A stretch of 64,000 nt of DNA, taken from Glaciihabitans sp. (GTDB lineage: Bacteria > Actinomycetota > Actinomycetes > Actinomycetales > Microbacteriaceae). A program made the position numbers and the translations under genes. Below the pieces are notes generated by a model. The model made no database searches. It was not told the origin of the DNA and saw only the letters and a list, made by a program, of their open reading frames with translations. The DNA is taken from positions 19,335-83,334 of the forward strand of contig JAODMY010000110.1 of NCBI GenBank assembly GCA_025465535.1, given 5' to 3'. Position 1 is the stretch's first letter. Each line of letters opens with the position of its first letter. Positions 3,255 through 64,000 of this stretch are shown here, piece by piece.

Positions 3255-5224
3255 TGGGGCCGACCGAACCAACTCCGCCGCAGCCATTTCCGCTGCAGCC
3301 ATTCCTGAGCGACGAGACCGTCGTGCTGCGCGCGCCGACGCAGGCCTGGTCGGCGGCCGACGGGACGATCGGCGCCCGCGGCATCCACGGGGTGTATTTC
3401 TCCGACGTGCGGATCGTGTCATCGCTCGCGGTCAGTTACGGGGGCGAGCCGGGCGAGGTGGTGGCCGCGGTCCCGGACGGGGCCGACTCGATCGACTTCG
3501 TCACCCTGCTTCGCAGACTGGATGACCGCAGTGCCGATCCACGGATCCGTGCGGTGCATCGCCGAACCGTTGGCACCGGTGGAGCCAGCGAGACCGTCAC
3601 CGTCTCATCGACGCTCGCGCATCCGGTCATGACAACCATCACGGTTCGACTCGGGGCGGATCTCGCCAACATGGATGCGGTCAAGTCCGGCCTGCACACG
3701 GATGCGGTCACCATCGCTGTCGCCGACCCTGCCGCCGACGCTGCCGCCGAATCCACCGCCAGCTGGGGCCGCGATGCGATCTCGGTCACGCTCCGGGCGA
3801 CCGACGCGCGCCTCACCATCGTGGGGGACGACCTCGAGCTCGCCTGGGACGTCACGGTACCGGCAAAGGGCTCGACCTCCGTCGGCTGGGACATCACGGC
3901 CACCGACTCGAGCGCCGTCGTCACCTCCGCCTCCCGAGCACCGGACTGGACGGTGCCGACCGCATCGAGTGGCGACGACCGGCTCGACCGCTGGCTCGCG
4001 AGGGCGCTGGTCGACCTCGAAGCGCTGCGGATGTCCCCAACGGCCGGCGATCCGGCATCCAGCGGTCCCGCACCCGTCTTCCTCGCGGCGGGTGCGCCCT
4101 GGTTCTTCACCCTCTTCGGCCGCGACTCGATCTGGTCGGCGCGACTGCTGCTACCGCTCGGCGGCACTCTCGCCGCGGACACGCTGCGTGTTCTCGCGTC
4201 GATGCAGGGCACGAAGCATGACGCCGCAACCGCCGAGCAGCCGGGCAAGATCATGCACGAGCTGCGCAGGCAGCCGCAGGAGATCCCGGCCGAGGGTCTC
4301 CTCCTGCCGCCGCTCTACTACGGCACGATCGATGCGACACCGCTGTGGATCTGCCTCCTGCACGACGCGTGGAAGTGCGGGATGCCCGACGCGGAGATTC
4401 GCGCGCTGCTGCCCAACCTTGTCGCCGCCCTCGGCTGGATGCGCGACTACGGCGACGCCGATGGCGACGGCCTGCTCGAGTACGTCGACAGCACCGGACA
4501 CGGGCTGGCCAACCAGGGCTGGAAGGATTCCGGCGACTCGGTGCAGTGGCGCGACGGACGCCTCGCCGAGGGCCCGATCGCGCTGTGCGAGGTGCAGGCC
4601 TACGCGTACGAGGCCGCGATGCACGCCGCCGACCTGCTCGACCACTTCGGCGGCGACAGCGACGACAGCAGCAGCAGCAGCGAGTGGCGCAGCTGGGCCG
4701 CGGCCCTCCGCGCGCGCTTCCACGAGACGTTCTGGATCTCGGACGCAGCCGGTGAATATCCGGCGATCGCCCTCGACGCCCACAAACGGCCGGTCGACAC
4801 GGTCACCAGCAATATCGGGCACCTGCTCGGCACCGGAATCCTCGACGACGACCAGAGCGCGCGGATCGCCTCGCGGCTCGTGTCGCCCGAACTGTCGTCG
4901 GGCTATGGCCTGCGGACCATGTCGACCGACTCCGCCGGATACTGGCCGCTCAGCTACCACGGCGGAAGCGTCTGGGCGCACGACACCGCGATCGTCATCC
5001 GCGGGCTGACCGCCGCCGGGCGCGACGCCGAGGCCGCCGTGCTCACGGATGGGCTGCTCGCCGCGGCGGCATCCTTCGACTATCGGATGCCAGAGCTGCA
5101 CTCGGGAGACGCCGCGACCGCCTTCTCCCGCGCCGTCCCATACCCCGCCGCGTGCCGCCCGCAGGCCTGGTCGGCCGCGGCCGCCGTCGCGGTCTGGGCG
5201 GCGGGAACCAGCTCTGCCGGTTAG
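3254..5224 (+). CDS. Glycogen debranching-type amylo-alpha-1,6-glucosidase (GH-like, N-terminal debranching domain)
   Basis: ATG at 3254 overlaps the upstream stop; motifs GAPWFFTLFGRDSIWSARLLLPLGG, PGKIMHELR, DATPLWI, GYWPLSYHGGSVWAHDTAI. Confidence 0.85.
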   Translation: MGPTEPTPPQPFPLQPFLSDETVVLRAPTQAWSAADGTIGARGIHGVYFSDVRIVSSLAVSYGGEPGEVVAAVPDGADSIDFVTLLRRLDDRSADPRIRAVHRRTVGTGGASETVTVSSTLAHPVMTTITVRLGADLANMDAVKSGLHTDAVTIAVADPAADAAAESTASWGRDAISVTLRATDARLTIVGDDLELAWDVTVPAKGSTSVGWDITATDSSAVVTSASRAPDWTVPTASSGDDRLDRWLARALVDLEALRMSPTAGDPASSGPAPVFLAAGAPWFFTLFGRDSIWSARLLLPLGGTLAADTLRVLASMQGTKHDAATAEQPGKIMHELRRQPQEIPAEGLLLPPLYYGTIDATPLWICLLHDAWKCGMPDAEIRALLPNLVAALGWMRDYGDADGDGLLEYVDSTGHGLANQGWKDSGDSVQWRDGRLAEGPIALCEVQAYAYEAAMHAADLLDHFGGDSDDSSSSSEWRSWAAALRARFHETFWISDAAGEYPAIALDAHKRPVDTVTSNIGHLLGTGILDDDQSARIASRLVSPELSSGYGLRTMSTDSAGYWPLSYHGGSVWAHDTAIVIRGLTAAGRDAEAAVLTDGLLAAAASFDYRMPELHSGDAATAFSRAVPYPAACRPQAWSAAAAVAVWAAGTSSAG

Positions 5225-10844: not shown

Positions 10845-12086
10845 GTGCGAATCCTTGTATTGGGCTCCGGTGCGCGCGAGCATGCCATCATCACGTCGCT
10901 GCTGTCAGAGCGCGCCGGTCACGAGATCACCTCGGCTCCGGGCAACGCCGGCATCGCCGCGGTCGTGCCCGTCGTCGCGCTCGATCCGACCAACGGGGAT
11001 GTGGTGGCGCAGTACGCGCTCGACAACGCCATCGACCTGGTCGTCGTCGGGCCCGAGGCGCCGCTCGTCGCGGGTGTCGCCGACAAGCTGCGCACGCGCG
11101 GCATCCCGGTGTTCGGGCCGAGCAAGGCGGCCGCCGCCCTCGAGGGCAGCAAGACGTTCGCGAAGCGGATCATGGATGAGGCCGGAGTTCCGAGCGGACG
11201 GGCCATTCGCGCCGGCACGCTCGCCGAAGCGATCGAGGCGATCGACGAATACGGCGCGCCCTACGTAGTCAAGGCCGACGGGCTCGCGGCCGGCAAGGGC
11301 GTACTCGTCACACCGGATCGCGATGCCGCCGTCGCCCACGCGGAGTACTGGCTCCAACACGGGAGCGTCCTTGTCGAAGAATTCCTCGCTGGCCAGGAGG
11401 TCTCGCTGTTCCTTTTGAGCGACGGCCACACCGTTCTTCCGCTGTCTCCCGCCCAGGATTACAAGCGAGTTTTCGATCGCGACGAGGGTCCGAACACGGG
11501 CGGAATGGGCGCGTACTCGCCCCTGCCCTGGCTTCCCGACGGCTTCGTGGACGAGGTGATCGACACGATCGCCCTGCCGACGATCCGGCAGTTGGCGGCC
11601 GAGCAGAAACCGTTCATCGGGCTGCTGTACTGCGGACTGATCCTGACGGCGAAGGGCACCCGCGTCATTGAGTTCAACGCGCGCTTCGGCGACCCGGAGA
11701 CGCAGGTCGTCCTGCCGCGACTGGTAACCCCCTTGAGTGGTTTGCTGTTTGCCGCGGCAACCGGCGGCCTCGGATCGTTGCCGCGACCCGAGTTTTCGGA
11801 TGAGGTCGCCGTCACCGTCGTGCTCGCGAGCGAGGGATACCCGGAGGATCCGATCACGGGTCGCCCGATCTCCGGACTCGACCGGGTGGAGGACGTGACC
11901 ATCGCGCACGCGGCGACCGCCGCATCTGGTGACGGCGGCTACATCGCGACCGGTGGGCGCGTGCTCAGCGTCGTCGCGCTCGGCGAGACTTTTGAGGCGG
12001 CGCGTGCGAAGGCCTACGCGGCGCTCGAGCAGATCCACCTCGAGGGAAGCCACTACCGCACCGATATCGCAGAGAGGGTCGTCTAG
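10845..12086 (+). CDS. purD: Phosphoribosylamine--glycine ligase
   Basis: [28 protein letters not shown]-grasp [31 protein letters not shown]. Confidence 0.98.
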
Positions 12087-12958
12087 TGCCTGACACCGAT
12101 TCCGCAGCACAAGAGCTGGACGGCTGGACGCACGAATACTCCGGCAAGGTCCGCGACCTTTACTCGTCCCCCGAACATCCGAAACGGGTGCTGATGGTGG
12201 CTAGCGATCGGGTGAGTGCGGCAGACCACGTGCTCACGCCGGCCATCCCCGGTAAGGGAGCGCTGCTCACGAAGCTCAGTCTGTGGTGGTTCGACCAGCT
12301 GGACAGCATGCCGAATCACCTCGCGCCAACAGACGAGTGGGCGGCGATTCCGGCCTCGGTCGCCGATCGCGCGATGCTCGTGACCAAGCTCGACATGTTC
12401 CCCATCGAGTGCGTCGTCCGCGGTTACCTCTCGGGCAGCGGCTGGGTCGAATACCAGGCGAGCCAGAGCGTGTGCGGCGTTCCGCTGCCCGCCGGACTCA
12501 CGGATGGCGACCGACTGCCCGAGCCGATTTTCACCCCGGCCTTCAAGGCCCCCGTGGGCGAGCACGACGAGAACATCACCCTCGAACGCACAGCGCAGCT
12601 GGTCGGAATCGAGAACGCCAGCGCACTGCGCGACCTGTCGATCGCGGTGTTTGAGCGCGCATCCACCATTGCTGAGGCCAAGGGCATCATCCTTGCCGAC
12701 ACCAAGTTCGAGTTCGGCGCGAGCGAGGACGGGACGATCACGCTGGGGGACGAGGTCCTCACCTCTGACAGCAGCCGATACTGGGATGCGGCAACCTACG
12801 CCGGCGGCAACCGCACGGCCAGCTTCGACAAGCAGGGCGTGCGCGACTGGCTGAAGGCGAACTGGTCAGGCGAGGGCACGCCGCCGCCGCTTGCCGCAGA
12901 CGTGGTCACCGCGACGGCGACGCGATACCGGGAGTTGGTCGATCGGCTCACCGCCTGA
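12086..12958 (+). CDS. purC: SAICAR synthase
   Basis: YSGKVRDLY; ASDRVSAADHVL; IECVVRGYLSGSGWVEYQ; LADTKFEFG. Confidence 0.97.
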   Translation: MPDTDSAAQELDGWTHEYSGKVRDLYSSPEHPKRVLMVASDRVSAADHVLTPAIPGKGALLTKLSLWWFDQLDSMPNHLAPTDEWAAIPASVADRAMLVTKLDMFPIECVVRGYLSGSGWVEYQASQSVCGVPLPAGLTDGDRLPEPIFTPAFKAPVGEHDENITLERTAQLVGIENASALRDLSIAVFERASTIAEAKGIILADTKFEFGASEDGTITLGDEVLTSDSSRYWDAATYAGGNRTASFDKQGVRDWLKANWSGEGTPPPLAADVVTATATRYRELVDRLTA

Positions 12959-12970
12959 TCCTCAAACCCC

Positions 12971-13036
12971 GTCTGCCCCCGTGCGATGCGTCTGCCCCCG
13001 TACGTACGGGGGCAGATGCATCGGGCGGGGGCAGAC
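12971..13036. repeat. 66-bp nested palindrome, copy 1
   Basis: gtctgcccccgtgcgatgcgtctgcccccgtacgtacgggggcagatgcatcgggcgggggcagac; GTACGTAC centre; 12 bp after the purC stop. Confidence 0.95.
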
Positions 13037-13075: not shown

Positions 13076-13957
13076 ATGAACGACAACCTCCTGGCCGCAG
13101 ACACCGCGATGGGGCCGGTGACCCTTCTCGTCGCCGACCTCGACGCGATGACGGCGTACTACCGGGACGCGGTCGCGCTCCGCGTGATCGACGAGACGCC
13201 CGGAGGTGCGACGGCGGCTCGCGTGACTCTTGGCCGCGGCACCACGCCGGTCATCATCCTCGAGGACTCGCCGGGCCTGAAGCACGCGTCGCGGCACGAT
13301 GCCGGACTGTTCCACACGGCGATCCTGTTCGAGACCGAGCGGGCGCTCGCCGCATCCGTATATTCGGTCGCACAGAAGCATCCCGGGTCGTTCACCGGCA
13401 GCTCCGACCACCTGGTCTCGAAGGCCTTCTACTTCACCGATCCCGAGGGCAACGGCGTCGAACTCTACTGGGACAGGGACCGCACCCAGTGGAGCTGGAC
13501 GCACGGCTCGATCGAGATGAGCACGCTGTTCCTCGATCCGAACGGATTCCTGCGGGAGAACCTGACTGATGAAGTGATCGAGAACCCGGTGGATGGCGGC
13601 GCCCGCGTCGGCCATGTCCACCTCTCGGTCGGTGACACGGCCACCGCGCGCGAGTTCTACGTCGACCGCCTCGGCTTCGAACAGACCATTGAAATACCCG
13701 GCCAAGCCGTGTTCGTCAGCGCCGGGAAGTACCACCATCACATGGCCATGAATGTGTGGAACTCGCGCGGAGCCGGACGCCGCGCACGAACCCTCGGCCT
13801 CGGCCAGGTCGACATCGTCGTGCCGTCGGCGGATGACATCGGCGCCCTCACCGAACGGATGTCGCACTTCGGAATCGAGACCCGCGACGACGGAGCGACG
13901 GTTGCCTTCGATGACCCATGGGCGAACCTGATTAGGGTCACATCTTCGGCGCGATAG
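13076..13957 (+). CDS. VOC-family glyoxalase / catechol-2,3-dioxygenase-like protein
   Basis: Two VOC modules (VTLLVADLDAMTAYYRDAVALRVI... and GHVHLSVGDTATAREFYVDRLGFE); DPEGNGVELYWDRDR. Confidence 0.85.
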   Translation: MNDNLLAADTAMGPVTLLVADLDAMTAYYRDAVALRVIDETPGGATAARVTLGRGTTPVIILEDSPGLKHASRHDAGLFHTAILFETERALAASVYSVAQKHPGSFTGSSDHLVSKAFYFTDPEGNGVELYWDRDRTQWSWTHGSIEMSTLFLDPNGFLRENLTDEVIENPVDGGARVGHVHLSVGDTATAREFYVDRLGFEQTIEIPGQAVFVSAGKYHHHMAMNVWNSRGAGRRARTLGLGQVDIVVPSADDIGALTERMSHFGIETRDDGATVAFDDPWANLIRVTSSAR

Positions 13958-43189: not shown

Positions 43190-44176
43190 TTGAGAATATT
43201 GGTCACCGGCGGCGCCGGGTTCATCGGATCGAACTTCGTTCGCCGGGTCCTCACCGACACGTATGAGGGTCTTGAGGGCGCAGAGGTCACCGTCCTCGAC
43301 GCGCTCACCTATTCCGGCAACCTGGCGAACCTCGCGCCGGTCGCCACGTCCGCTCGCTACGCCTTCGTGCACGGCGACATCCGTGATGCCGAGCTGCTCG
43401 ACCACGTGCTCCCCGGGGTCGATGCCATCGTGCACTTCGCGGCCGAGTCACACGTCGACCGCTCCGTGCGTGACGCGGCTCCGTTCATCTCGACCAACGT
43501 CGGCGGAACGCAGCAGCTGCTCGACGCGGCGGTGCGCCACCAAATCGAGCGATTCGTGCACGTCTCGACCGACGAGGTGTACGGGTCGATCGAGACCGGT
43601 TCGTGGCGAGAAGACCACATCCTCGAACCGAACTCCCCGTACGCGGCGTCCAAGGCCTCGAGCGACCTGCTCGCCCGCGCCTGGCACCGCACGCACGGGC
43701 TCAACATCTCGGTAACGCGCTGCTCCAACAACTACGGCACGTACCACTTCCCCGAAAAGCTCATCCCGCTGTTCGTGACCAACCTGCTCGACGGGCTGCC
43801 TGTTCCGCTCTACGGCGACGGCGAGAACGTGCGCGACTGGCTGCACGTCGATGACCACTGTCGCGGCATCGCGATGGTGCTGACCCGCGGTGCGGCGGGT
43901 GAGATCTACAACATCGGCGGCGGCACAGAACTCACCAACCGACAGCTCACCGAACTGCTCCTCGAGGCCACGAGCCGCGACTGGTCCTTCGTCACCCAGG
44001 TCGAAGATCGCAAGGGCCACGACCGCAGGTACAGCGTCGACATCGGCAAGATCTCGTCCACTCTCGGATACCAGCCGCAGGTGGATTTCACCGCGGGCCT
44101 CGCCGACGTCGTCGCCTGGTACCGCGATAACCGCGCGTGGTGGGAACCGCTCAAGCAGCGCGCCGGGCTCGTCTAG
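43190..44176 (+). CDS. rfbB: dTDP-glucose 4,6-dehydratase
   Basis: MRILVTGGAGFIGSNFVRRVL; FAAESHVDRSV; STDEVYGSIE; YAASKASSDLLARAW; RCSNNYGTYHFPEKLIP. TTG start proposed. Confidence 0.97.
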   Translation: MRILVTGGAGFIGSNFVRRVLTDTYEGLEGAEVTVLDALTYSGNLANLAPVATSARYAFVHGDIRDAELLDHVLPGVDAIVHFAAESHVDRSVRDAAPFISTNVGGTQQLLDAAVRHQIERFVHVSTDEVYGSIETGSWREDHILEPNSPYAASKASSDLLARAWHRTHGLNISVTRCSNNYGTYHFPEKLIPLFVTNLLDGLPVPLYGDGENVRDWLHVDDHCRGIAMVLTRGAAGEIYNIGGGTELTNRQLTELLLEATSRDWSFVTQVEDRKGHDRRYSVDIGKISSTLGYQPQVDFTAGLADVVAWYRDNRAWWEPLKQRAGLV

Positions 44177-54248: not shown

Positions 54249-55847
54249 GTGACTGCCGATAACGACTCTCCCTCCGTATTCACGACCGCCGGCAAGCTGG
54301 CCGATCTCAAGGTTCGCTATCACGAAGCCGTGACGGCCAGTGGTGAAACCGCGATCGAGAAGCAGCACAGGAAGGGCAAGAAAACCGCGCGCGAGCGCAT
54401 CGACACCCTGCTGGATCACGGCTCGTTCGTCGAGCTTGACGAGTTTGTCCGCCACCGCACGCACGCCTTCGGCATGGAGAAGAATCGGCCTTACGGTGAC
54501 GCGGTAGTCACCGGAACCGGAACCATCCACGGTCGCCAGGTCGCCGTGTACAGCCAGGACTTCACCATCTTCGGCGGATCGCTCGGCGAGGTCGCCGGCG
54601 AGAAGATCATCAAGGTCATGGATCTCGCGCTGAAGACGGGTGTGCCGATCATCGGGATGCTCGACTCGGGCGGCGCCCGCATCCAGGAGGGCGTCGTCGC
54701 CCTCGGCAAGTACGGCGAGATCTTCCGACGCAACACGCAGGCGTCCGGGGTCATCCCGCAGATCTCGATCATCATGGGGCCCGCGGCCGGCGGTGCCGTC
54801 TACTCCCCCGCGCTCACCGACTTCGTGATCATGGTCGATAAGACCAGCCAGATGTTCGTGACGGGCCCCGACGTCATCAAGACGGTGACGGGCGAGGACG
54901 TCGGCATGGAGGAGCTCGGTGGCGCCCTCACCCACAACAAGATCTCCGGAGTCTCGCACTACCTCGCGAGCGACGAGGATGACGCGCTCGACTATGCGCG
55001 GACCCTGCTCAGCTTCCTGCCGGACAACAATCTCGCCGAGCTGCCCGTCTACGAGAGCGAGGTCGACCTCGAGATCACGGATGAGGACCGCAGGCTCAAC
55101 ACCATCATCCCGGATTCGACGAACCAGCCGTATGACGTCAAGACGGTCATCGAACACATCGTCGACAGCGCGGACTTCCTCGAGGTGCAGCCGCTCTTCG
55201 CCCCGAACATCGTCATCGGCTTCGGTCGCGTCGAGGGCCGCTCGGTTGGCATCATCGCGAACCAGCCGAGCGCGATGGCCGGAACCCTCAACATCGACGC
55301 CGGTGAGAAGGCTTCGCGCTTCGTGCGGTTCTGTGACGCGTTCTCGATCCCGATCCTGACGCTCGTGGATGTTCCCGGCTACCTTCCCGGGACCGACCAG
55401 GAGTGGACGGGCGTCATCCGTCGCGGGGCGAAGCTGCTCTACGCCTATGCCGAGGCCACCGTTCCGCTTGTCACGGTGATCACGCGCAAGGCCTACGGCG
55501 GCGCATACATCGTGATGGGGTCGAAGCAGCTCGGCGCGGATCTCAACTACGCGTGGCCGACTGCCGAGATCGCCGTCATGGGTGGCCAGGGCGCTGTCAA
55601 CATCCTGTACCGCAACGAGCTGAAGGCCGCGGAGGCCGCCGGCGAGGATGTCGCCGCCGTCCGCACCAAGCTTGCCAACGAATACACCTATAACGTCGCA
55701 TCCCCGTTCCTCGCGGCCGAACGCGGAGAGCTCGACGGCGTAATCGAGCCGGCCGCCACTCGCGTCGTGGTGACCAAGGCGTTGCGCGCGCTGCGCACCA
55801 AGCGTGCGAGCCAGCCGCCCAAGAAGCACGGAAACATCCCCCTGTGA
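54249..55847 (+). CDS. Acyl-CoA carboxylase beta subunit (carboxyltransferase)
   Basis: [82 protein letters not shown]. Confidence 0.96.
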
Positions 55848-56666: not shown

Positions 56667-56732
56667 GTCTGCCCCCGCCAGATGCGCGTGCCCCCGTACG
56701 TACGGGGGCAGACGCATCACACGGGGGCAGAC
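56667..56732. repeat. 66-bp nested palindrome, copy 2
   Basis: gtctgcccccgccagatgcgcgtgcccccgtacgtacgggggcagacgcatcacacgggggcagac. Confidence 0.95.
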
Positions 56733-56842: not shown

Positions 56843-57901
56843 TCAGATAGCGGGCGCGGCGGGCGCCGCCACCGCACTGCGCGGGATCTCCAGCCACAGG
56901 TTGACCTCGTCGTCCTCGAGCGCCTCCTGGCCGAGAGCACTCGCGCTGTCGTCACCCACCGTGCGCAGTCCGACGACGGTGATGGCGACATCCGATCCCT
57001 CCGGAACCGTTCGCGCGATCACCTTGTCGGCGTCGGTTCCGGCCAGCGCCTCCGCCAGGCGGTTGAGCACGCGCTCCAGATCCTCGTCGGAGAGGTCGTC
57101 GAGACCGCCCTCGTCCAGAAGAGTCACGATGGCGCCGCGGCGCCGCGCGCTCATGACCTGCTCGCGCACGGCATCGTTCAGCAGCTTGCGTCCACGAATC
57201 TCATCGCGGATCGCGCCCTCGAGATGCAGGCACTCCTTACGCTGTTCTTCAGTGAGGTCGCCGTTGGCGTCCTCGATCGTCCGCAGCATCTCCAGGGCCA
57301 TCGAGCTCGTCTGTCCCAAGCGAAACTGACGTTCGAACACGTGGGCCTCCTGGGCGGCCTGCCAGTCGGTCGCCTCGCGTTCGGCGAGGGCAAAGCGCTG
57401 GGCGTCCCGGCTGGCCTTCGCCATGGCGTAGCTGAGCACGTGGGAGATCCCGACCCAGACCACGCTGCCGATGACACCGATGTTGGCGAGCTCTCCGGGA
57501 CCAGCCCAGAGGACGGTCTGGACGACCAGGAATCCGACGCCGATCCACGCGAACGTGTGCCGACGCCTCGTCGAGGTGATCGTCATGAGCGTGCCGACGG
57601 CGGCGACATACCAAGTGCCGTAGCCGTTCTCCAGGTGCGGGTCGAGCTGGCCGCTGACCAGCAGTGGCAACGCGATGACGACCGCGAGATTCAGCCCGGC
57701 CATCCACACCGGTATGCGCGTCGGCCCCCACGGCAGGAGGCTCACGGCCGACGCCACCGCATAGATAATCATGGCGAGGAAGATTGGCCCCGCGCTGAAC
57801 GGAATGCCCCTGATGAGCGAATAGCCTGCGAGCACAAGATGGTAGGCCGAGAAGACGGCGGCCAGGCCGACGACCAGGTAGCGCGGAACCCCGATGTTCA
57901 C
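56843..57901 (-). CDS. Membrane protein with cytoplasmic coiled-coil/kinase-like C-terminus, degenerate sensor-kinase-like partner
   Basis: Six-TM-like N-terminus then helical region (AEREATDWQAAQEAHVFERQFRLGQTSSMALEMLRTIEDANGDL); no recognisable N/G boxes; overlaps the upstream histidine kinase by 4 bp. Confidence 0.65.
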   Translation of the reverse strand: MNIGVPRYLVVGLAAVFSAYHLVLAGYSLIRGIPFSAGPIFLAMIIYAVASAVSLLPWGPTRIPVWMAGLNLAVVIALPLLVSGQLDPHLENGYGTWYVAAVGTLMTITSTRRRHTFAWIGVGFLVVQTVLWAGPGELANIGVIGSVVWVGISHVLSYAMAKASRDAQRFALAEREATDWQAAQEAHVFERQFRLGQTSSMALEMLRTIEDANGDLTEEQRKECLHLEGAIRDEIRGRKLLNDAVREQVMSARRRGAIVTLLDEGGLDDLSDEDLERVLNRLAEALAGTDADKVIARTVPEGSDVAITVVGLRTVGDDSASALGQEALEDDEVNLWLEIPRSAVAAPAAPAI

Positions 57902-62070: not shown

Positions 62071-62163
62071 CCAACCAGTTGTAGGCATCATCCGTGTTCC
62101 GGGATCCGTTTTGTGCCCTCCGGACAAAAGCGCTGGCCCCTCTGCCCCATAGGCTGGGTAATT

Positions 62164-63918
62164 ATGGCTCGCATCACCAAGGTCCTCATTGCCAATCGCG
62201 GAGAGATTGCGGTGCGCGTCATCCGCGCCGCCCGCGACAGTGGCATTGCATCCGTTGCCGTCTACGCCGACCAGGATCGGGATGCGCGTCACGTCAAGCT
62301 CGCCGATGAGGCATATGCCCTCGAGGGCACGACGAGCGCGGAGACGTATCTCGTCATCGACAAGATCCTGTCGATCGCGCGCCGCTCCGGTGCCGACGCG
62401 ATCCATCCGGGTTACGGATTCCTGGCGGAGAACGCCGGCTTCGCGCAGGCAGTCATCGACGCGGGCATCGCCTGGATCGGGCCATCGCCCGACGCCATCG
62501 AGAAGCTGGGCGACAAGGTCTCGGCAAGGCATATCGCCGAGAAGGTCGGCGCGCCGCTGGCTCCCGGAACGCTCAACCCGGTCTCCGGAGCAGACGAGGT
62601 GCTCGACTTCGTCGATATTCACGGTCTGCCCGTCGCGATCAAGGCGGCGTTCGGCGGCGGCGGTCGCGGTCTCAAGGTCGCCCGCACCCGCGAGGAGATT
62701 CCCGAGCTGTTCGAGTCCGCGACCCGCGAGGCGATCGCGGCCTTCGGGCGCGGCGAGTGCTTCGTCGAGAAGTACCTCGACCAGCCACGTCACGTCGAGA
62801 CCCAGTGCCTCGCCGACTCGCACGGAAACGTCGTCGTCATCTCGACCCGCGACTGCTCGCTGCAGCGTCGACACCAGAAACTCGTCGAGGAGGCGCCAGC
62901 GCCATTCCTGACCGATGAGCAGAACCTCGCGCTGTACACCTCGTCAAAGGCCATCCTCAAGGAGGTCGGCTACGTCGGCGCCGGAACCTGCGAGTTCCTG
63001 GTCGCGAAGGACGGCACGATCTCCTTCCTCGAGGTGAACACTCGGCTGCAGGTCGAGCATCCCGTGTCCGAGGAGGTCACCGGAATCGACCTCGTCCGTG
63101 AGCAGTTCCGCATCGCAGAGGGCGGAACGCTCGAATACGGCGATCCGAAGCCGCGCGGGCACTCGTTCGAATTCCGCATCAACGGTGAGGATGGCGGACT
63201 GAACTTCCTACCCTCCCCCGGCCCCGTTCGCACGCTTCGCCTCCCAGGCGGCCCCGGTGTCCGCGTCGACAGCGGGGTCACGACCGGCGACGTCATCACG
63301 GGAGCCTTCGACTCGCTGCTCGCAAAGCTGATCGTCACGGGATCCAGCCGCGAGGATGCCCTCGAGCGCGCCCGCCGCGCCCTCGACGAATTCGAGGTGA
63401 CGGGGCTGCCAACCGTGCTGCCGTTCCACCGCAAAATCGTGCGTGATCCCGCGTTCACCTCGAACCCCTTCCGCGTCTACACCCGCTGGATCGAAGAGGA
63501 ATTCGTCAACGACATCGAGCCGTGGAGCGGCGAGCTCGAACTCGAGCCGGCCGGCTCAGCCCCCCGCCACAAGGTCGTTGTCGAAGTCGACGGCAAGCGG
63601 ATCGCCGTCTCGCTTCCCACGAAACTGCTTCCGTCATCCGGCGGGCTAGCCAACACTCCGGCCCCGAGGCGCCACGGCGGCGGCGCGGTCAGCACCGTCA
63701 CGGGCGACTCTGTTTCGGCGCCAATGCAGGCGACCGTCGTGAAGCTCGCCGTTGCCGACGGCGACCGGGTCGTCAAGGGCGACCTCGTGCTCGTGCTCGA
63801 GGCCATGAAGATGGAGCAGCCGATTCTCGCGCACAAGGATGGCGTGGTCGCGGCCCTCAATGCGGCGGTCGGCACGACCGTCTCCTCCGGGCACGTGCTG
63901 CTCAGCATCTCCGACTAG
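62164..63918 (+). CDS. Acetyl/propionyl-CoA carboxylase alpha subunit (biotin carboxylase + BCCP)
   Basis: [45 protein letters not shown]; biotinylation motif [12 protein letters not shown]. Confidence 0.97.
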
Positions 63919-63941: not shown

Positions 63942-64000
63942 GTCTGCCCCCGGGTGATGCGTCTGCCCCCGTACGTACGGGGGCAGACGCATCACCCGGG
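63942..64000. repeat. 66-bp nested palindrome, copy 3 (cut by window edge)
   Basis: gtctgcccccgggtgatgcgtctgcccccgtacgtacgggggcagacgcatcacccggg; 23 bp after the carboxylase alpha stop. Confidence 0.95.

Follow-up and report, generated by a model that had tools for sequence, protein, structure and literature searches.

Among dispersed palindromes of bacteria, the best understood are those that a RAYT moves, as is the case for REPINs and GTAG-tagged REPs (Nunvar 2010, PMC2817692; Bertels and Rainey, cited in PMC3733652). For the CGTC-tagged REPs no dedicated or known transposase is on record, and their origin was left open in the survey that describes them (Di Nocera 2013, PMC3733652). These REPs have an 8-9-bp stem, a 4-5-nt loop and an unpaired CGTC or TGTC tag; conv-REPs lie <20 bp from both 3′ ends, families private to a single species were reported, and Actinobacteria are not mentioned in the survey (PMC3733652). 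Terminators formed by inverted pairs of DUS or USS words were described in Neisseria and Pasteurellaceae (PMC2267715). Our literature search found no paper combining RAYT, REPIN and Actinobacteria.

The window analyzed here, a stretch of 64,000 bp from the host genome (G000:C87:19335-83334), holds three copies of a 66-bp nested palindrome. The initial annotation had placed these copies 3′ of purC, the 56843-57901 gene and the carboxylase alpha gene, and had given a nested-palindrome consensus for them; the sequence is exactly as described, with distances to the genes of 12, 110 and 23 bp. Contig C87 stops at window base 64000, and because this contig end is the right end of the window, copy 3 is truncated. 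The features of interest are the following:

12086-12958, plus strand: purC, SAICAR synthase, ending 12 bp upstream of copy 1
12971-13036, no strand assigned: copy 1 of the 66-bp palindrome, spacers TGCG/CGGG, a single inner-arm change (ATCTGCC), flanked by purC (plus) and the glyoxalase-family gene (plus)
12971-12981, plus strand: outer unit GTCTGCCCCCG of copy 1, with its inverted partner at 13026-13036; the outer units are the best-conserved part of the arms
12993-13014, no strand assigned: core TGCCCCCGTACGTACGGGGGCA of copy 1, near-invariant across copies and used as search probe
13076-13957, plus strand: gene of the glyoxalase/dioxygenase superfamily, downstream of copy 1
54249-55847, plus strand: carboxyltransferase subunit gene, left of copy 2 at a distance of 819 bp
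56667-56732, no strand assigned: copy 2, spacers CCAG/CACA, inner arm GCGTGCC, in convergent context between the carboxyltransferase gene (plus) and the 56843-57901 gene (minus)
56843-57901, minus strand: gene without family match, its 3′ end facing copy 2 at 110 bp
62113-63918, plus strand: acyl-CoA carboxylase alpha (biotin carboxylase and BCCP), ending 23 bp upstream of copy 3
63942-64000, no strand assigned: copy 3, spacers GGTG/CACC, cut by the contig end

Copy 3 had rightly been called a perfect palindrome over its remaining part, as had the arm mismatches of copies 1 and 2 been placed outside the core. With one mismatch allowed, the three copies contain 10 matches to GTCTGCCCCCG, compared with a chance expectation of 3.2; none of 100 shuffles reached 10.

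The anatomy of the element was read from 53 distinct copies in sampled stretches of the genome, 43 of which are complete. Its plan is GTCTGCCCCCG-NNNG-ATGC-GTCTGCCCCCG-TACGTA, followed by the inverse; each arm consists of two direct GTCTGCCCCCG copies 19 bp apart, and the two arms are opposed around TACGTA. The N4 spacer takes the form NNNG (G in 52 of the 53 copies) and is drawn from a small repertoire that includes GGTG, TGTG and CCAG. The core and CCCCCG/CGGGGG are near-invariant, and variation of the inner arm is found mainly at positions 21-22, where GTC is changed to GTG or GCC. The 11-mer GTCTGCCCCCG occurs 184 times in 594 kb vs. 1.5 times expected and is almost never alone; one solo copy was found, and solo words are at chance level.

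In the 43 complete copies, deviations from the consensus were seen in 7 of 86 outer 11-mers vs. 37 of 86 inner 11-mers, although both have the same consensus (p=1.7e-7). The spacers are identical between the arms in 19 of 43 copies, compared with 10.2 expected after re-pairing of the arms, and 442 of 473 inner-arm positions pair vs. 435.2 (sd 2.5) for re-paired arms, so that the pairing of spacer and inner arm exceeds that of re-paired arms by about 2.5 sd. The difference between outer and inner units, together with this excess of pairing, indicates that the ends are constrained as sequence and that in the middle it is partly the pairing that is kept. Such a pattern fits selection on a hairpin as well as a folded strand in which one arm corrects the other, and the data do not separate these two. 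Three 3-unit copies (L047 16395, L065 5985 and L069 1334) are missing one outer unit and stop precisely at an inner 11-mer, which is accounted for by deletion between the 11-bp direct repeats.

Element counts rest on pattern searches and sampled stretches of the host genome, a 3.10-Mb draft that is about 90% complete. The 20-nt core CCCCCGTACGTACGGGGGCA was found with up to two mismatches at 65 places on each strand of the draft; the reversed control matched nowhere. Leaving the core free in a second pattern gave 63 places, including those with AACGTT and GTACGTCC cores. The genome thus carries at least 65 copies, and the dispersed family claimed initially from three copies had been understated. 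Contigs C11, C18, C44, C51, C85, C87 and C105 of the draft begin or end within a copy; so many contig ends within copies mean that the assembly is interrupted by the repeat, whose true copy number may exceed this count.

No match to the 22-nt core (up to one mismatch) was found in 399 other genomes of the same family, five of them of the same genus, the only positive among 400 being the query, and a looser pattern gave only non-palindromic two-mismatch matches in the congeners. One contig matched in an exact scan of 85,462 species, from which same-species records were possibly left out. This match, on a Kaiserbacteria contig, was rejected as a family member, being a short isolated palindrome that lacks the outer units. 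Plasmids and phages gave no match, and the 28 Rfam matches, all below the gathering threshold and mostly to eukaryotic miRNA hairpins, were judged artefacts of a perfect hairpin. Around purC the host shares about 73-80% DNA identity with its congeners, which lack the element, so the family is either younger than the split of the species or was lost elsewhere. The suggestion of a mobile, dispersed family survives these searches on account of the many copies in the genome; as there are none in relatives, the family is private to the species and not genus-wide.

Gene contexts were predicted with a simple codon-usage model, and individual contexts may be wrong; the sampled loci were chosen for holding a copy, which inflates the density of the element but should not create an orientation bias. 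The element is extragenic, with one of 53 copies predicted inside a gene. Of 50 copies lying between two predicted genes, 34 are in convergent, 14 in tandem and two in divergent position. Convergent spacers make up 15% of the intergenic bases (p=3e-17 for the excess of copies) and divergent ones 37% (p=5e-8 for the deficit). The median distance from the nearest stop codon to a copy is 17 bp.

A transcribed copy folds into an RNA hairpin with a mean energy of -63.6 kcal/mol and a stem of about 30 bp. Outward from the stem, both sides read roughly R-S-G-G-N-T-N-G-G-G-G. With respect to intrinsic terminators, the GC-rich hairpin is present and T reaches 0.61-0.63 at +6 only, followed by G-rich sequence, in agreement with the missing T-tract remarked on initially. 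Element-free convergent gene pairs do well with a median spacer of 28 bp, indicating that termination there does not require the element. In convergent spacers, residual hairpins look the same whether or not an element is present. The stem does not extend into the flanks of the main family, where pairing is no better than for re-paired flanks; in the family of congener G173 described below it is slightly above. Likewise, we saw no fixed orientation defined by the flanks, their overall information not being clearly above the null; AG on both flanks was rarer than expected (1 vs. 4.8, p=0.009).

The element had been described as REP/REPIN-like, with a search for a RAYT proposed. For the RAYT domain (PF01797, Y1_Tnp), no match was found in the host genome (about 90% complete) and five congeners, two of the six genomes being about 97-99% complete, whereas 5 of 14 control genomes were positive. 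Flanks of the element showed no excess of left/right identity at k=2-10 that would indicate a target-site duplication. A MITE of a DDE-type IS was rejected, since terminal inverted repeats are present and the target-site duplication is absent. Genes between close pairs of elements are ordinary (clpX, copC, TetR, epimerase, DUF222), with no transposase among them. One pair of identical copies, which share a rare spacer haplotype, is separated by 286 bp and has unrelated flanks; this suggests that the element was copied without its surroundings.

The element resembles REPINs and GTAG REPs in its dozens of near-identical extragenic copies, inverted layout, position near gene 3′ ends, lack of target duplication, frequent restriction to one species and compensatory stem changes. 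Of the original REP/REPIN comparison, copy number, extragenic position at 3′ ends and the layout as inverted pairs stand; the head, the half-unit palindrome and the RAYT do not. The protein-bound cruciform also suggested initially is favoured over an RNA hairpin by none of the observations. Unlike in RAYT-linked REPs, the unit starts with GTCTG and has no GTAG/GTGG (GTRG) head, the outer flanks read R-S-G-G outward, and neither GTCTGCCCCCG nor the 33-nt arm is an inverted repeat, only the whole element being palindromic. Each arm is, moreover, a tandem pair of 11-mers, the host is of high GC and probably belongs to the Microbacteriaceae, and the six genomes of the genus gave no RAYT. As in CGTC REPs, a C or T precedes the unit in most copies, giving a CGTC or TGTC start, no dedicated transposase is seen, and copies lie near the 3′ ends of convergent genes. 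In contrast to those REPs, the GTC is paired in the element and the stem measures about 30 bp.

A de novo hairpin search, run in sampled genome stretches, revealed three private families besides the main one: CGAGTCCGG in congener G115, GAGTTGCCC in congener G173 and a minor one, CGAGTCGGGGC, in the host genome (G000) itself. At the purC 3′ end of the sister species G115 there is a long hairpin unrelated to the main family, and this hairpin is a repeat private to G115, with 25 arm matches there and few weak ones elsewhere. In G173 the GAGTTGCCC arm was matched 51 times, as against zero in five congeners; the arm of the minor family was matched 24 times in the host and 0-3 times per genome elsewhere. 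A gene 3′ end adjoins 26 of 27, 9 of 10 and 8 of 8 copies of the three further families. Their common plan is a nearly fixed total of 56-61 bp, of which the first 9-11 bases are invariant, with compensatory mid-stem changes and a freely varying loop.

The minor family of the host has the form CGAGTCGGGGC-(variable, compensating)-CCCTTCCC-loop over 57 bp and is present in about 15-20 copies, most of them at gene 3′ ends (L054:14468-14524, L199:2966-3022 and L201:2997-3053, among others). The 56-61-bp hairpins of G173 (L168-L187) and G115 (L148-L164) have species-specific arms and also lie at 3′ ends. Some G173 palindromes have extra direct copies of the arm word about 16-26 bp outside; at L170:2930-3005, L177:6500-6640 and L171:2981-3093 the spacing is about 20-26 bp. 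They look as if the arms grow by tandem duplication, and echo the doubled arm of the main family. No comparable dispersed family was found in 398 kb of congener G043. Its purC gene is followed by tandem arrays of 25-bp and 18-bp units (AGTGCCAGCTCGGGTAGTGATACGC; AGTGCCAACTCGCGGGGC) at L137:3041-3127 and 3536-3661, the 18-bp array containing CGAGTTGGCACT words; these arrays occupy the gene-end spacer that holds palindromes in relatives. A search of 200 kb in each of two genomes from other genera yielded only ordinary, weakly related hairpins. A hairpin with GTCGAGACC/GGTCTCGAC lies in genome G223 at L236:17372-17429, and we take similar words to be common repeats in other Actinobacteria.

Orthologous sites sometimes hold different families, as observed at purC, clpX and copC. 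The clpX-copC segment is bounded at its two outer ends by the main family in the host (L045) and by the G173 family in G173 (L174), and two G115 sites are minor-family sites in the host, with diverged arms. These replacement examples stem from element-rich stretches and are biased accordingly; the synteny test of G173 sites is less so, and it found a known element at none of the seven syntenic G173-element sites with both flanks present in the host. The commoner state is an element in one species and a short empty spacer in the other. At five inspected sites the spacers are about 3, 50, 94, 95 and 226 bp in the host vs. 93, 215, 162, 274 and 328 bp in G173, the 93 bp opposite the 3-bp spacer including the G173 hairpin. 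In G115, one convergent site has about 6-12 bp between the genes, as opposed to >100 bp with an element in the host. Gained spacers exceed the length of the palindrome, and clean insertion of one unit is therefore not demonstrated; as for the direction of turnover, gain vs. loss, we infer it. Beside an element at L056:5880-5937 of the host, GCCAAAAAGTAGCTTC occurs twice, including the stop codon region, and this site is empty in G115.

Taken with the placement and conservation of the copies, these results make it probable that the element is a species-private, non-autonomous, REPIN-like mobile palindrome that is tolerated at 3′ ends and whose hairpin probably ends or caps both transcripts. The family would have expanded after the host species split from its sisters, with copying presumably carried out by an enzyme that recognizes the conserved ends or a folded single strand. 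Copies persist almost only just behind stop codons, above all between convergent genes; insertion there may be harmless, or useful since the hairpin would stop or protect the transcript. Between convergent genes the DNA would be transcribed from both sides and fold into a hairpin of roughly 30 bp, most likely stopping or capping (3′ exonuclease protection) both mRNAs. The effect on transcripts, termination and mobility is what we infer from the genomic data.

A rather unlikely, yet substantial, alternative is that the element is the preferred bidirectional terminator of the species, multiplied through ordinary recombination or gene conversion and maintained because termination is selected for, with no dedicated mobility. 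Like bidirectional intrinsic terminators of high-GC bacteria, it places a hairpin between convergent stop codons, and the strong 3′-end and convergent bias, the very stable hairpin, the compensatory mid-stem changes and the slight T enrichment 5-7 nt past the stem on both sides agree with such a role. So do the two G115 and two minor-family hairpins at orthologous sites, whose arms have diverged as under concerted evolution. However, terminators at different sites normally share no sequence relationship, whereas the 66 bp of the element are conserved as a repeat family, and a terminator could do without 66 near-identical bases and without outer ends held tighter than the inner stem. Sites are, besides, mostly unshared, a known element lacking in the host at 7 of 7 syntenic G173 sites, and some of the empty spacers are as short as 3-12 bp.

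Movement of a REPIN/REP family by a RAYT or another IS200/IS605-type tyrosine transposase is very improbable. High-copy extragenic palindromes near 3′ ends, near-identical variants and the missing target duplication would be expected of it, but PF01797 is missing from six genomes of the genus while the search detects it in control genomes, the GTAG head is absent and the half-unit is not palindromic; this largely refutes the explanation, barring a divergent transposase in the missing 10% of the draft. We consider improbable, too, that the four 11-mers form an array of sites for a DNA-binding protein, be it a nucleoid or silencing protein or a recombinase. Their fixed spacing, their 184 occurrences in 594 kb vs. 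1.5 expected and the strong constraint on the outer copies speak for it; yet the 11-mer is hardly ever solo (one was found), placement tracks gene ends rather than promoters or a spacing rule, and the covariation in mid-stem speaks for arms that pair with each other. That GTCTGCCCCCG is an uptake-signal-like word acting as a terminator when paired seems barely conceivable. The word is species-specific and occurs as inverted pairs at gene ends, as in DUS/USS terminators. Uptake words, however, are mostly dispersed singles; here solo words are at chance level and the whole 66-bp architecture is conserved.

Location at 3′ ends and restriction to one species are not new by themselves, as both are reported for CGTC REPs (PMC3733652). 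What is new here is that two sister species have their own unrelated private 3′-end families and that this genome has a second, minor one. We propose only tentatively that a genus-wide, RAYT-independent process keeps creating and amplifying species-private 3′-end palindromes from a short word repeated directly and inversely; these would possibly form a new non-autonomous class with its own mover favouring transcribed convergent ends. If so, sister species would differ in their dispersed 3′-end hairpins. With private families in three species, RAYT absent and orthologous sites replaced or empty, this small genus makes the origin of such repeats and their settling at convergent gene ends directly testable.

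Apart from the palindromes, ARAGORN called a tRNA-Thr (CGT) on the minus strand of the window at 43911-44006; at 96 nt it is unusually long, possibly a false call or a tRNA with a long variable arm.
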